A stretch of DNA of 64,000 bases from an uncultured Prevotellaceae bacterium. GTDB lineage: Bacteria > Bacteroidota > Bacteroidia > Bacteroidales > Bacteroidaceae. The stretch is taken from assembly GCA_947165505.1 (NCBI GenBank), contig CAMVAT010000001.1, forward strand, positions 112,958 to 176,957, in the 5' to 3' direction. Below are positions 6,171 through 11,118 of the stretch, piece by piece. The notes under the pieces are model-generated. The model made no database searches. It had not been told where the DNA came from and was given only the letters and a program-made list of their open reading frames with translations. How positions within the stretch are numbered: position 1 is the stretch's first letter; the number at the start of each line of letters is the position of its first letter. Made by a program: the position numbers and the translations under genes.

Positions 6171-6380
6171 CTAAATCATCTCACTGTTTTTATCATTTAT
6201 TATTTTTTTAATTTGAGAAATTGTTTCTTTTACGCGGACAGTTATAACTTCTTCATTACCTTTCCAATGCAATAATGCTGGAGTATCTTCGTCTTGAAAA
6301 CCCCATTCTACAGAATTTGGAACTAATATTGTCCTTCCCGTTTTGTAGTCATGTAACTTAATTTGTATAATTTGTGCCAT
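6171..6380 (-). CDS. Small FlbD-like hypothetical protein in the RiPP-like locus
   Basis: 69 aa; KLHDYKTGRTILVPNSVEWGFQD...LLHWKGNEEVITVRVKETISQIKKII pattern. Confidence 0.55.
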   Translation of the reverse strand: MAQIIQIKLHDYKTGRTILVPNSVEWGFQDEDTPALLHWKGNEEVITVRVKETISQIKKIINDKNSEMI

Positions 6381-6492: not shown

Positions 6493-6520
6493 CTACGCCA
6501 GTCTTATTTAACTGGCGTAG
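6493..6520. repeat. Perfect 10-bp stem-loop between precursor ORF and downstream genes
   Basis: CTACGCCAGT (6493-6502) cttattta ACTGGCGTAG (6511-6520). Confidence 0.9.
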
Positions 6521-6580: not shown

Positions 6581-6733
6581 TTACTGGCTTCTTTCACAAA
6601 CACTGCATCCATCTTCACCATGGTTAGCGAAAATTGCACATTGTTTTCCACGATTCTTAGTAGGGCATCCTGCGGCATAAGAACCAGCTACTTGGTTTTT
6701 TGCGACCAATTCCACTTTTTTGTACTTTTTCAT
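6581..6733 (-). CDS. Candidate radical-SAM-modified RiPP precursor peptide (50 aa, 4 Cys)
   Basis: MKKYKKVELVAKNQVAGSYAAGCPTKNRGKQCAIFANHGEDGCSVCERSQ*; starts 53 nt after the rSAM stop, same strand; absent from the ORF track because shorter than 60 aa. Confidence 0.75.
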   Translation of the reverse strand: MKKYKKVELVAKNQVAGSYAAGCPTKNRGKQCAIFANHGEDGCSVCERSQ

Positions 6734-8338: not shown

Positions 8339-8581
8339 CTACTCCTTCTGTCCTATTTTAAAAGAATAAAACTCATTTGATTGTTTTTCGAAAAGAGGTA
8401 CGAATTCAGATTCGGTAATACATTCTGTTTTTATTATTTCTTTAACCCCACTTATTTCCCCCAAATATCTAAGCGCAACGATACTTGGGTCGGAAGACCC
8501 TTCCATCGCCACAAGAATTTCCAAAGAACGAGGAGCTTTTCCTCTTTCTGTTAACTCGACTGTAACTTTGTAAAAATACAT
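8339..8581 (-). CDS. Hypothetical 80-aa protein, first ORF of the RiPP-like locus
   Basis: Start re-set to MYFYKVTVELTERGKAPRSLEILVAMEG; alternating beta/alpha pattern; upstream part of the listed ORF looks non-coding. Confidence 0.5.
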   Translation of the reverse strand: MYFYKVTVELTERGKAPRSLEILVAMEGSSDPSIVALRYLGEISGVKEIIKTECITESEFVPLFEKQSNEFYSFKIGQKE

Positions 8582-8698
8582 ACGTAATAAAACTAACATT
8601 ATGCCTACGTCCTTTTTTGTTAGCCCCGAGTACGGACACCAATGGTTGAATCGATTCGGCTTTCTATTCGCTTCATGACAACGAGAATTGCATACTAA

Positions 8699-8997
8699 GG
8701 TGGGCTTATTTAATGAGATGTTCTTATCTCGCCCCACACACAACAACAGAGGTGTGAGCCTTCAGACATTCCTTATCCGAAGGTTCTGGAAATACCGTGA
8801 AAGAAAGAATGAAAATCAGCTCACACCTGTAGGGATATATATGCGAGTTGGCCATGACTTGGCATGACAGCACAATATATACACGCTACAGGAGAAGCAG
8901 CGTTCAGACTTTTACCCCTTTCTTAGTGAATTTTCCAGATTCTCGGATGGGTTCAAGCTTATAGCTCTTCTCGATGTCGGCCGTCTTTATTCAAGAC
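8699..8997 (-). ncRNA. Candidate structured leader or independent ncRNA upstream of the radical SAM locus
   Basis: Three consecutive stem-loops: 8826-8832/8886-8892 with AT-stem extension; 8750-8759/8819-8828; 8701-8705/8731-8736 enclosing 8715-8719/8726-8730; promoter-like box at 9005-9012. Confidence 0.45.
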
Positions 8998-9193: not shown

Positions 9194-9745
9194 TCATCCG
9201 CCGACGGATACTTCACTGACACCTCCCTCGATGCCACCGGTGTAGGAGCCGATGTCGTGGCCGTCGCGTATCAGACGCTTGGCGATGAAGGGTTGACCAA
9301 CCAACACCATGGGCACTTCGAGCAAGTCGGACACGAGCAACTTACCGCCACTGACGGATTCGACACGGCAACGGCCATCGTCGGACACACGCATCACCAC
9401 ACGCCGCCGGGGCGGATAGCTGACGGTGACGACGGTGCCAACGGGCAAATCAACGGGAAAGACGGCACTGTTCTCGGCATCAATGACCGAGTTGCTGTCT
9501 TCGGTGCAACGGCAGAGCAGGCGCCAACTGCCATAGCCTAAGTAGCGGGCGACGACCTGAAGTGTGGACTCAGTGGGCTTTACCTCGGACAGGAGGCCGA
9601 ACAGCCGCTTGAGGGTGTTCACGCCGATACGCTCGCCCGTCCGCTGTTCGATGTCTAAGGCGAGAGCGTCGAACTGTGAGGGGCGCGAGAGGTCGCACCC
9701 GATGCGCTCACGGATGAGTTTTTGGATATAGGGTGAAAGTGTCAT
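9194..9745 (-). CDS. Hypothetical protein, possible regulator, downstream of and coupled to a Ser/Thr kinase
   Basis: 183 aa; YIQKLIRERIGCDLSRPSQFDALALDIEQRTGERIGVNTLKRLFG N-terminal helical domain; ATGA overlap with the kinase stop. Confidence 0.65.
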   Translation of the reverse strand: MTLSPYIQKLIRERIGCDLSRPSQFDALALDIEQRTGERIGVNTLKRLFGLLSEVKPTESTLQVVARYLGYGSWRLLCRCTEDSNSVIDAENSAVFPVDLPVGTVVTVSYPPRRRVVMRVSDDGRCRVESVSGGKLLVSDLLEVPMVLVGQPFIAKRLIRDGHDIGSYTGGIEGGVSEVSVGG

Positions 9746-11118
9746 GGTTGCACGATATGGTCGTTATGTTTCTGATTGAGTCGGTAATGGTCGATATTTG
9801 CTTGAAAGAGCGAATCAATACGCCTCATCTGTTGGTAGAGATAATTGTCGCACGGGTTGTAGGGCTTGGGGTTGCCTGTGTAGTTCATCCAATGGATGCG
9901 CATCCAGAATGGGGCTTTTCTCCTGCCATAGTCCAATGCAGCGTTTTTCATAGGCTCATAGGCCGCACGGTATGCCTCTATGCCTCCTAGTTGAAAAGGT
10001 TTCTGCGCATCAGACACAAACTGTATGAGTTTGGTCAATATCGAGTCGGTAGTGGGTTGGAACAAGGCCAACTCACGCATCTGACGGGCGCGGAAACCTG
10101 TCTTGGGTATGACATGAGGGTCGATGGTGTCGAACGTTGTGGCTGTGGCATCGTCGATAGAGATGACGGGGTGAGGGGATGCTTCGGTGGTGACGACGGG
10201 CTGAGGGGCAGCATCATTGGTGACAGGGGACCCTGTGTCCGCATCTGATGCGACTTCGCCAACTGCACCAGACAGAGCGACACTGCGCTCAACCGCCGTA
10301 TCGTTGACAGCCATGCCTGATGGTGGCGGTAAGGCCTGCTCTTCTACCGCCGGGGATTTGCCGCTCCATGCCCACCATGCCCAACCTCCCAGCAACAGGA
10401 GGAGCATTGCGGCTGCCAGGGGCCACCACCGACGTGGTTTTAGCAGAGCCGCAGACAGCTGGTCGATGCTCTGATACCTCTCCGCTGCATCGGCACGACG
10501 ACAACGGGCAGTCACCGACTTTCTGGCGATACCCAGCTCATCAAAAATGACACCTAAAGAATAAATGTCACTGGCGGGGGTCTTCACCGGGTCAGGGGCC
10601 GTGTAGTGCGGCGTGCCGCCTGTGGTGAAGGGGTAGCTGTCTTGATAGGCATACCCCAAGTCGATGAGCTTGACGTGACCACCTATGCGCGTCATCAAGA
10701 TGTTGTCGGGCTTGAGGTCTAAATGAAGCACCCCATGCTGATGAAGGTATGCTACGGCAGACAACAGTTCGTCGATCAACTGCCGTGCATGGTCTTTCCG
10801 TGCGAAATAGCCGGGATGGAGCGACTCCCATTCGTTGAGCGTGACCCCATCGACATAGTCCATGAGGAAATAATCGTCGTGCCACTCCAGATAACGTGGA
10901 ATATTGGGATGCTGCAAAACACAGCCCAGCTCAAACTCCTTTTCCAATGCCTGAAGGTATCGCTCATCGGCCGCATATTCGGGAAGCAGTTGCTTGCGCA
11001 CCACCAAGCGTCCACGCTGTCGGACCAGCGTACACGTACACATCCCCCCGCTCGCCAAAAAAGAGTCGTGCGGCTGGGCGGTGGCATCATGAGGCGTTAT
11101 GACAGATTCTTCAGGCAT
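9742..11118 (-). CDS. Membrane-anchored serine/threonine protein kinase
   Basis: VRK Lys, HLDLKPDNI catalytic loop, LIDLGYA, GTPHYTAPD; TM WWPLAAAMLLLLLGGWAWWAW followed by a C-terminal domain. Confidence 0.9.
   Translation of the reverse strand: MPEESVITPHDATAQPHDSFLASGGMCTCTLVRQRGRLVVRKQLLPEYAADERYLQALEKEFELGCVLQHPNIPRYLEWHDDYFLMDYVDGVTLNEWESLHPGYFARKDHARQLIDELLSAVAYLHQHGVLHLDLKPDNILMTRIGGHVKLIDLGYAYQDSYPFTTGGTPHYTAPDPVKTPASDIYSLGVIFDELGIARKSVTARCRRADAAERYQSIDQLSAALLKPRRWWPLAAAMLLLLLGGWAWWAWSGKSPAVEEQALPPPSGMAVNDTAVERSVALSGAVGEVASDADTGSPVTNDAAPQPVVTTEASPHPVISIDDATATTFDTIDPHVIPKTGFRARQMRELALFQPTTDSILTKLIQFVSDAQKPFQLGGIEAYRAAYEPMKNAALDYGRRKAPFWMRIHWMNYTGNPKPYNPCDNYLYQQMRRIDSLFQANIDHYRLNQKHNDHIVQP

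Follow-up and report, generated by a model that had tools for sequence, protein, structure and literature searches.

A short open reading frame (ORF) in the window, by which we mean the whole stretch of 64,000 nucleotides analyzed here, probably encodes the precursor of a RiPP that is modified by a radical SAM enzyme and follows a "clamp and loop" design. The gene belongs to a three-gene radical SAM RiPP family of gut and rumen Bacteroidales and spirochaetes, which combines frozen sequence blocks, a hypervariable loop, and a dedicated hydrolase.

The Precursor Gene and Its Relatives

The ORF at 6581-6733 (-) specifies the 50-residue peptide MKKYKKVELVAKNQVAGSYAAGCPTKNRGKQCAIFANHGEDGCSVCERSQ, with cysteines at positions 23, 32, 43, and 46. 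A sequence-only reading had proposed it as a precursor gene. Among 85,462 species genomes scanned, 80 loci encode relatives. In the 81 genes compared, nearly all variation within the eight GSYAAGCP codons falls at the third position (nucleotide diversity 0.045, 0.045, and 0.543 at codon positions 1, 2, and 3), which points to constraint at the protein level rather than to chance or an RNA element. On this comparative evidence, the ORF is judged to be a genuine translated RiPP precursor gene, as proposed; homologues with conserved cysteines, on which the proposal had been made to depend, do exist. Pfam and NCBIfam models returned no credible match to the window precursor or to 31 relatives, in agreement with the earlier remark that the peptide could not be assigned with certainty to a named precursor family. 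A survey of openly licensed literature yielded neither a report of SYAAGC nor a matching system, which may have been described elsewhere. As far as Pfam, NCBIfam, and this literature go, the precursor family is so far new.

Hosts of the relatives are Bacteroidales, Treponema, and other spirochaetes, with a few records labeled Clostridia, Elusimicrobiota, Alphaproteobacteria, and others. Since many host records are metagenome bins, some of the single taxon labels may be wrong. Two near-identical systems, L062 and L075, come from bins labeled Lachnospiraceae and Spirochaetaceae, with radical SAM genes that are 99.2% identical in DNA, reflecting either a recent transfer or a mis-binned contig. 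Of 150 genomes of the window's own genus, the three that contain the precursor (G059, G062, and G070) are precisely those that contain the hydrolase, which marks the system as sparse and accessory.

Because GSYAAGCP was one seed of the 85,462-genome scan, the invariance of the motif in that scan is partly ascertained. Profile searches without motif seeding were run at the genus, order, and phylum levels over about 940 genomes; E values fell below 1e-15 for full family members and above 0.002 for noise, and every member retrieved carried the motif. Starting instead from the radical SAM enzyme, a search recovered the same motif and, in L122, a GSYAAGCK variant. Tandem second copies read GAYSAGCP (L041) and GIYAASCP (L076); the latter copy, MSYVKPAFYAQTAPEGIYAASCPMKTGVTNFCSCKIGK at L076:294-407, shows the invariant block in a naturally altered form. 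Given these variants, GSYAAGCP is strongly but not absolutely fixed.

Several further leads were set aside. Among weak matches of the order and phylum profile searches (L089-L095), four were inspected (L091, L092, L094, and L095) and taken as chance, as their SYAAGCP-like strings lie in frames overlapping other genes and have no radical SAM neighbor. Viral contigs contain no relative that would suggest phage carriage, and PADLOC matches reflect only unspecific resemblance to radical SAM proteins (viperin) and to kinases rather than antiphage defense.

Table 1. Positions of the precursor gene, its parts, and neighboring features (window coordinates unless a locus is given)
Feature	Position	Strand	Remarks
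Precursor peptide gene, 50 aa	6581..6733	(-)	Relatives at 80 loci; codon-position signature, 81 genes
Leader, residues 1-16	6686..6733	(-)	Y-x-K-[PAV] motif, invariant Ala11, nearly invariant Asn13; from 82 peptides and alignment
Invariant block GSYAAGCP, residues 17-24	6662..6685	(-)	Exceptions in L122, L041, L076
Hypervariable segment, residues 25-42	6608..6661	(-)	Holds nonconserved Cys32
C-terminal block C-x2-C-E-R-x-x, residues 43-50	6584..6607	(-)
Inverted repeat CTACGCCAG...CTGGCGTAG	6493..6520	(-)	About 60 nt 3' of stop codon; no T-run
Small ORF, 69 aa, in precursor-hydrolase gap	6171..6380	(-)	Best identity 41%, to L012 ORF at corresponding place
Amidohydro_2/TatD-like metallohydrolase, 251 aa	5335..6090	(-)	Metal-site residues intact
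Maturase, 498 aa	6787..8283	(-)	PqqD-like RRE, radical SAM (CNERCIHC), and SPASM
183-aa protein gene	9194-9745	(-)	Flanking module with kinase; association only
Ser/Thr protein kinase	9742-11118	(-)	Flanking module with 183-aa gene; recurs near precursor in Bacteroidales
Plasmid 38-aa precursor MSYSKPTVLAKSSTYMAQCRPNSKPSGRPCNPPGPSGR	L125:5809-5925, L126:5807-5923, L127:5809-5925

Anatomy of the Peptide

Residue counts from 82 peptides divide the precursor into the four parts listed in Table 1, and the charged leader and small-residue block GSYAAG of the original description are both borne out among relatives. The hypervariable segment, rich in Gly, Ser, Asn, Ala, and Thr, runs to 8-30 residues, and the spacing between the two blocks varies over the same range. 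The family form of the C-terminal block is C-x2-C-[E/D], with exactly four residues beyond the last Cys in 78 of the 82 peptides.

Alignment also allowed the proposed cysteine pattern to be examined. The spacings C-x8-C, C-x10-C, and C-x2-C are correct for the window peptide, and the C-terminal CxxC is indeed conserved across relatives. The four-Cys core with its two longer spacings does not, however, hold as a pattern: exactly three cysteines are present in 62 of 82 peptides and four or more in the other 20. By alignment, the family cysteines are Cys23, Cys43, and Cys46 only, Cys32 being a minority extra in the hypervariable region. Cys32 lies within a C-x-[IL]-F patch that, by eye, is also found in L122 and L006. 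Most members display a C-x3-[E/D] spacing, which C-x3-C and other variants break.

The Maturase and the Hydrolase

A gene with RRE, radical SAM, and SPASM domains was found in 70 of the 71 loci with room for it, so that a small precursor with a conserved leader adjoins a radical SAM-SPASM gene, as in radical SAM RiPP systems generally. Pfam recognizes a PqqD-like N-terminus (above cutoff), the radical SAM core, and the SPASM domain in the window enzyme. The N-terminus is assigned as an RRE on the PqqD match together with an RRE-like fold in the AlphaFold model (mean pLDDT 88). No variation occurs in the cysteines of the CxxxCxxC site (CNERCIHC), and little or none in eight cysteines of the SPASM domain. 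That an RRE-bearing radical SAM-SPASM enzyme is a near-obligate partner makes radical chemistry more likely than a simple metal site.

The solved structures nearest to the maturase model are SuiB, CteB, SkfB, and anSME, with SkfB nearest by sequence; because these enzymes differ in chemistry, the fold is silent on which link the maturase makes. No curated NCBIfam cutoff is reached by the enzyme, including those of the sactipeptide maturase models AlbA (73.9 bits against a cutoff of 850), StsB (71.9 against 625), and SkfB (62.9 against 300). Models for PQQ, mycofactocin, and heme enzymes match likewise, so radical SAM-SPASM similarity says nothing of the chemistry. A second, divergent radical SAM-like gene lies next to the main one in L006, L013, L015, L021, L039, L062, L075, L078, and L080. 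An extra gene in L074 and L078 matches the N-terminal domain and lacks the CxxxCxxC site.

Of the 61 loci with room for it, 59 encode the metallohydrolase. Pfam assigns only broad domains to the protein and no specific family. Across 48 proteins, seven residues never vary (His6, His8, His97, His128, His156, Asp176, and Asp202), among them the metal residues H6, H8, H128, H156, and D202, and this His/Asp set indicates that the hydrolase is probably catalytically competent. Its structural model (pLDDT 96.5) is closest to the amidohydrolase 3CJP, 2-pyrone-4,6-dicarboxylate hydrolase, and ACMSD-like enzymes, a fold that fits small-molecule hydrolases and decarboxylases too.

Genomic Surroundings

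The usual gene order is precursor, radical SAM, hydrolase. In the window it is radical SAM, precursor, small ORF, hydrolase, and the radical SAM gene also precedes the precursor in L004, L028, L051, L056, and L064. A hairpin 3' of the precursor is a common feature, with z < -2 in 66 of 81 cases versus 9 of 81 for the upstream control (simple base shuffles). No conserved exporter or leader peptidase was found among the recurring neighbors of the precursor.

About half of the loci contain a small ORF between the precursor and the next enzyme. The sequences of these ORFs are mostly unrelated, and Pfam gives them no family, immunity families included. Were they immunity genes, they would be expected to covary with the core, and counterexamples occur both ways. 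The small ORF is shared and the cores differ in L062/L075, L016/L024, and L055/L071; the cores are similar and the small ORF is different or absent in L059/L077 and L005/L007. Lacking strict covariation with the core, the small ORFs were rejected as immunity genes.

Among the Bacteroidales loci, the Ser/Thr kinase recurs in 20 and a 183-189-aa protein in 19. In each of five congeners carrying the system (G000, G059, G070, G985, and G1021), a kinase of this kind is located no more than about 6 kb from the precursor, although the genome possesses just 2-5 of them. As the orientation varies and other kinase copies in G000 stand beside unrelated genes, the link is a statistical one. In 11 spirochaete-type loci (L059, L062, L066, L069, L073, and others), a divergently placed gene ~0.4 kb upstream of the precursor encodes a small Cro/C1-type HTH protein, a candidate regulator. 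The 135-aa ORF at 8339-8746 (-) has relatives in no locus and is probably outside the system.

Core Replacement between Near-Identical Clusters

Clusters were compared at successive levels of radical SAM enzyme identity. As enzyme identity rises, leader identity climbs to 0.97, whereas mean core identity stays flat at 0.26-0.32 at every level (shuffled cores, 0.25). Constant leaders and enzymes combined with chance-level core identity are the mark of a hypervariable-core RiPP. Even where clusters share 85-99% of the radical SAM gene in DNA and 92-100% of the leader, the cores are mostly about as unlike as shuffled ones. In L062/L075, the leaders are 97% alike in DNA and the core is not shared: the alignment is nearly identical up to the end of GSYAAGCP and becomes so again from the stop codon onward. 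Comparable leaders and enzymes with unlike cores are found in L016/L024, L001/L020, and several spirochaete pairs; L071/L077, with similar cores, is an exception. The tandem copies within L016 have their upstream sequence and leader in common and differ in core. Some cores also recur in less related systems (L027/L036 and L005/L007). Unlike cores in near-identical clusters are not explained by neutral drift of a spacer; judged from these alignments, either recombinational replacement or very strong diversification can account for the turnover.

A Sister Lineage on Plasmids

Seven conjugative plasmids (five from E. coli, one from Salmonella, and one from Photobacterium) harbor a radical SAM gene whose product is 38-39% identical to that of the window. 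Directly before it is an unannotated 38-aa ORF, MSYSKPTVLAKSSTYMAQCRPNSKPSGRPCNPPGPSGR, that is identical on all seven. The core follows the pattern CRPNxxPxGRPCNPPGPxGR behind a YxxP leader, and GSYAAGCP is absent. In the three plasmid loci examined, a resolvase-family recombinase gene is situated immediately upstream of the precursor. The search from the radical SAM enzyme also showed that a congener of the window's genome carries MKKYQTPTLVAQSTVKMADCRPNRRPCGRPCNPPGPGGR. In the enzyme tree, the sister-lineage enzymes nest inside the family, with well-supported forks and long branches, which implies that leader and enzyme stay paired while the core type can change wholesale. No hydrolase gene was detected next to the plasmid precursor, and the joint lack of GSYAAGCP and an adjacent hydrolase in this lineage points to the GSYAAGCP-type product as a probable substrate of the hydrolase. 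At L119:5294-5404 (-), a 36-aa ORF, MKEYSAPQALTTLVKENKSLLGKAIASGDMVCCSKC, adjoins a 45%-identical radical SAM gene in a locus with neither a GSYAAGCP precursor nor a hydrolase, and is possibly a further precursor type.

Proposed Mechanism and Alternatives

In the clamp-and-loop scheme, the leader would dock on the PqqD-like RRE, and the radical SAM enzyme carrying this domain would then modify residues of the invariant blocks. Only these residues are common to the members, so any site-specific link must use them, and Cys is their most reactive side chain, making thioethers a first guess. The most likely links would thus be thioethers from Cys23, Cys43, or Cys46 to invariant-block residues. Such links would turn the variable stretch into a closed loop, and the metallohydrolase would trim the peptide or process a modified residue. 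Replacement of the loop alone between near-identical systems suggests that the loop carries the recognition function and may be under pressure to change from strain rivalry, signaling specificity, or evasion, with recombination between conserved flanks or fast diversification as the route. A bolder version, which we consider plausible but somewhat short of an even bet, is natural loop display: the enzyme pair would macrocyclize almost any 8-30-residue sequence set between invariant clamps, and recombination would exchange the loops but leave leader and enzymes unchanged.

The links could also be of known type, namely, ordinary Cys-to-alpha-carbon or Cys-to-Asp/Glu thioethers placed at the invariant blocks of a sactipeptide or ranthipeptide. 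In its favor, the maturases closest to the window enzyme in sequence and fold are SkfB and CteB, together with SuiB, and the C-x3-[E/D] spacing resembles the C-x3-[D/E] spacing of PapB substrates (PMC9413430). The window enzyme nonetheless also matches PQQ, mycofactocin, and heme models, so that radical SAM-SPASM similarity does not reveal the chemistry, and the existence of C-x3-C members means that the Glu/Asp spacing is not universal and cannot serve as a rule. Known chemistry is a real possibility that we would still not bet on, and it is a refinement of the clamp-and-loop explanation rather than its opposite. A much simpler peptide, a small metal-binding or disulfide protein with the three cysteines as ligands and no radical SAM modification, would make use of the C-x2-C and the third conserved Cys to hold a metal, but it is very improbable: it leaves unexplained why nearly every locus with room encodes a radical SAM enzyme whose domain binds leaders, and why the sister lineage keeps leader and enzyme together around a wholly different core.

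PQQ and mycofactocin are small cofactor-like products made from precursor peptides, and GSYAAGCP could likewise be the raw material of such a product, the remaining peptide being a discarded spacer. The near invariance of a block containing both Tyr and Cys, the frequent use of small molecules by amidohydrolase-fold enzymes, and the absence of a conserved exporter are all compatible with this. A mere spacer would not be expected to conserve C-x2-C-[E/D] at a fixed distance from the end; it should also diverge at the synonymous rate, yet cores are replaced where radical SAM genes are 95-99% identical in DNA. With the sparse, accessory distribution also against it, a cofactor precursor appears unlikely. 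That distribution, the hypervariable core, and the tandem copies would instead suit a bacteriocin-type RiPP, whose cognate immunity protein could be sought in the diverse small ORFs at a fixed place (6171-6380 in the window). These ORFs nevertheless fail to track the core in either direction, many loci have none, and Pfam detects no immunity family, leaving a bacteriocin with this immunity gene a slightly poorer prospect still. The clamp-and-loop reading remains the one we favor.

Comparison with Known Systems

Like the ranthipeptides made by PapB/PapA and CteB, the family pairs an RRE-bearing radical SAM-SPASM maturase with a Cys-rich core; the C-x3-[E/D] seen in most members resembles the PapB motif. 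It differs in having one C-terminal block rather than repeated motifs, and in its C-x3-C members, GSYAAGCP, and dedicated hydrolase. Sactipeptides of the SkfB type offer the nearest solved maturase by sequence, although the identity is low, the window family has a hypervariable segment between invariant blocks, and an alpha-carbon thioether is only putative here.

Prochlorosins and cyanobactins are hypervariable-core RiPPs with constant leaders and enzymes and tandem copies. The window family shares all of these traits but relies on other enzymes, flanks its variable segment with constant blocks on both sides, and has one or two precursors per locus. Lasso peptide leaders contain a YxxPxL motif that is read by the RRE, and many members of the window family display Tyr-x-x-Pro-x-hydrophobic; in many others, however, Pro is replaced by Ala or Val (Val in the window), and the recurring neighbors include neither a lasso cyclase nor B proteins. 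The plasmid sister precursor resembles the family in its YxxP leader and nested radical SAM enzyme, but its core is identical on seven plasmids rather than variable and no hydrolase gene was detected alongside.

If loop display is true, the family would be a radical SAM counterpart of the hypervariable-core RiPPs, one in which constant blocks bracket the variable segment. Its maturase must accept nearly any core, a property wanted in peptide engineering, and the frozen blocks point to residues worth examining for chemistry. The E. coli plasmid sister precursor provides a tractable way in, and, with cores turning over to such an extreme degree, it becomes directly testable what selects the diversity of RiPPs among gut communities.
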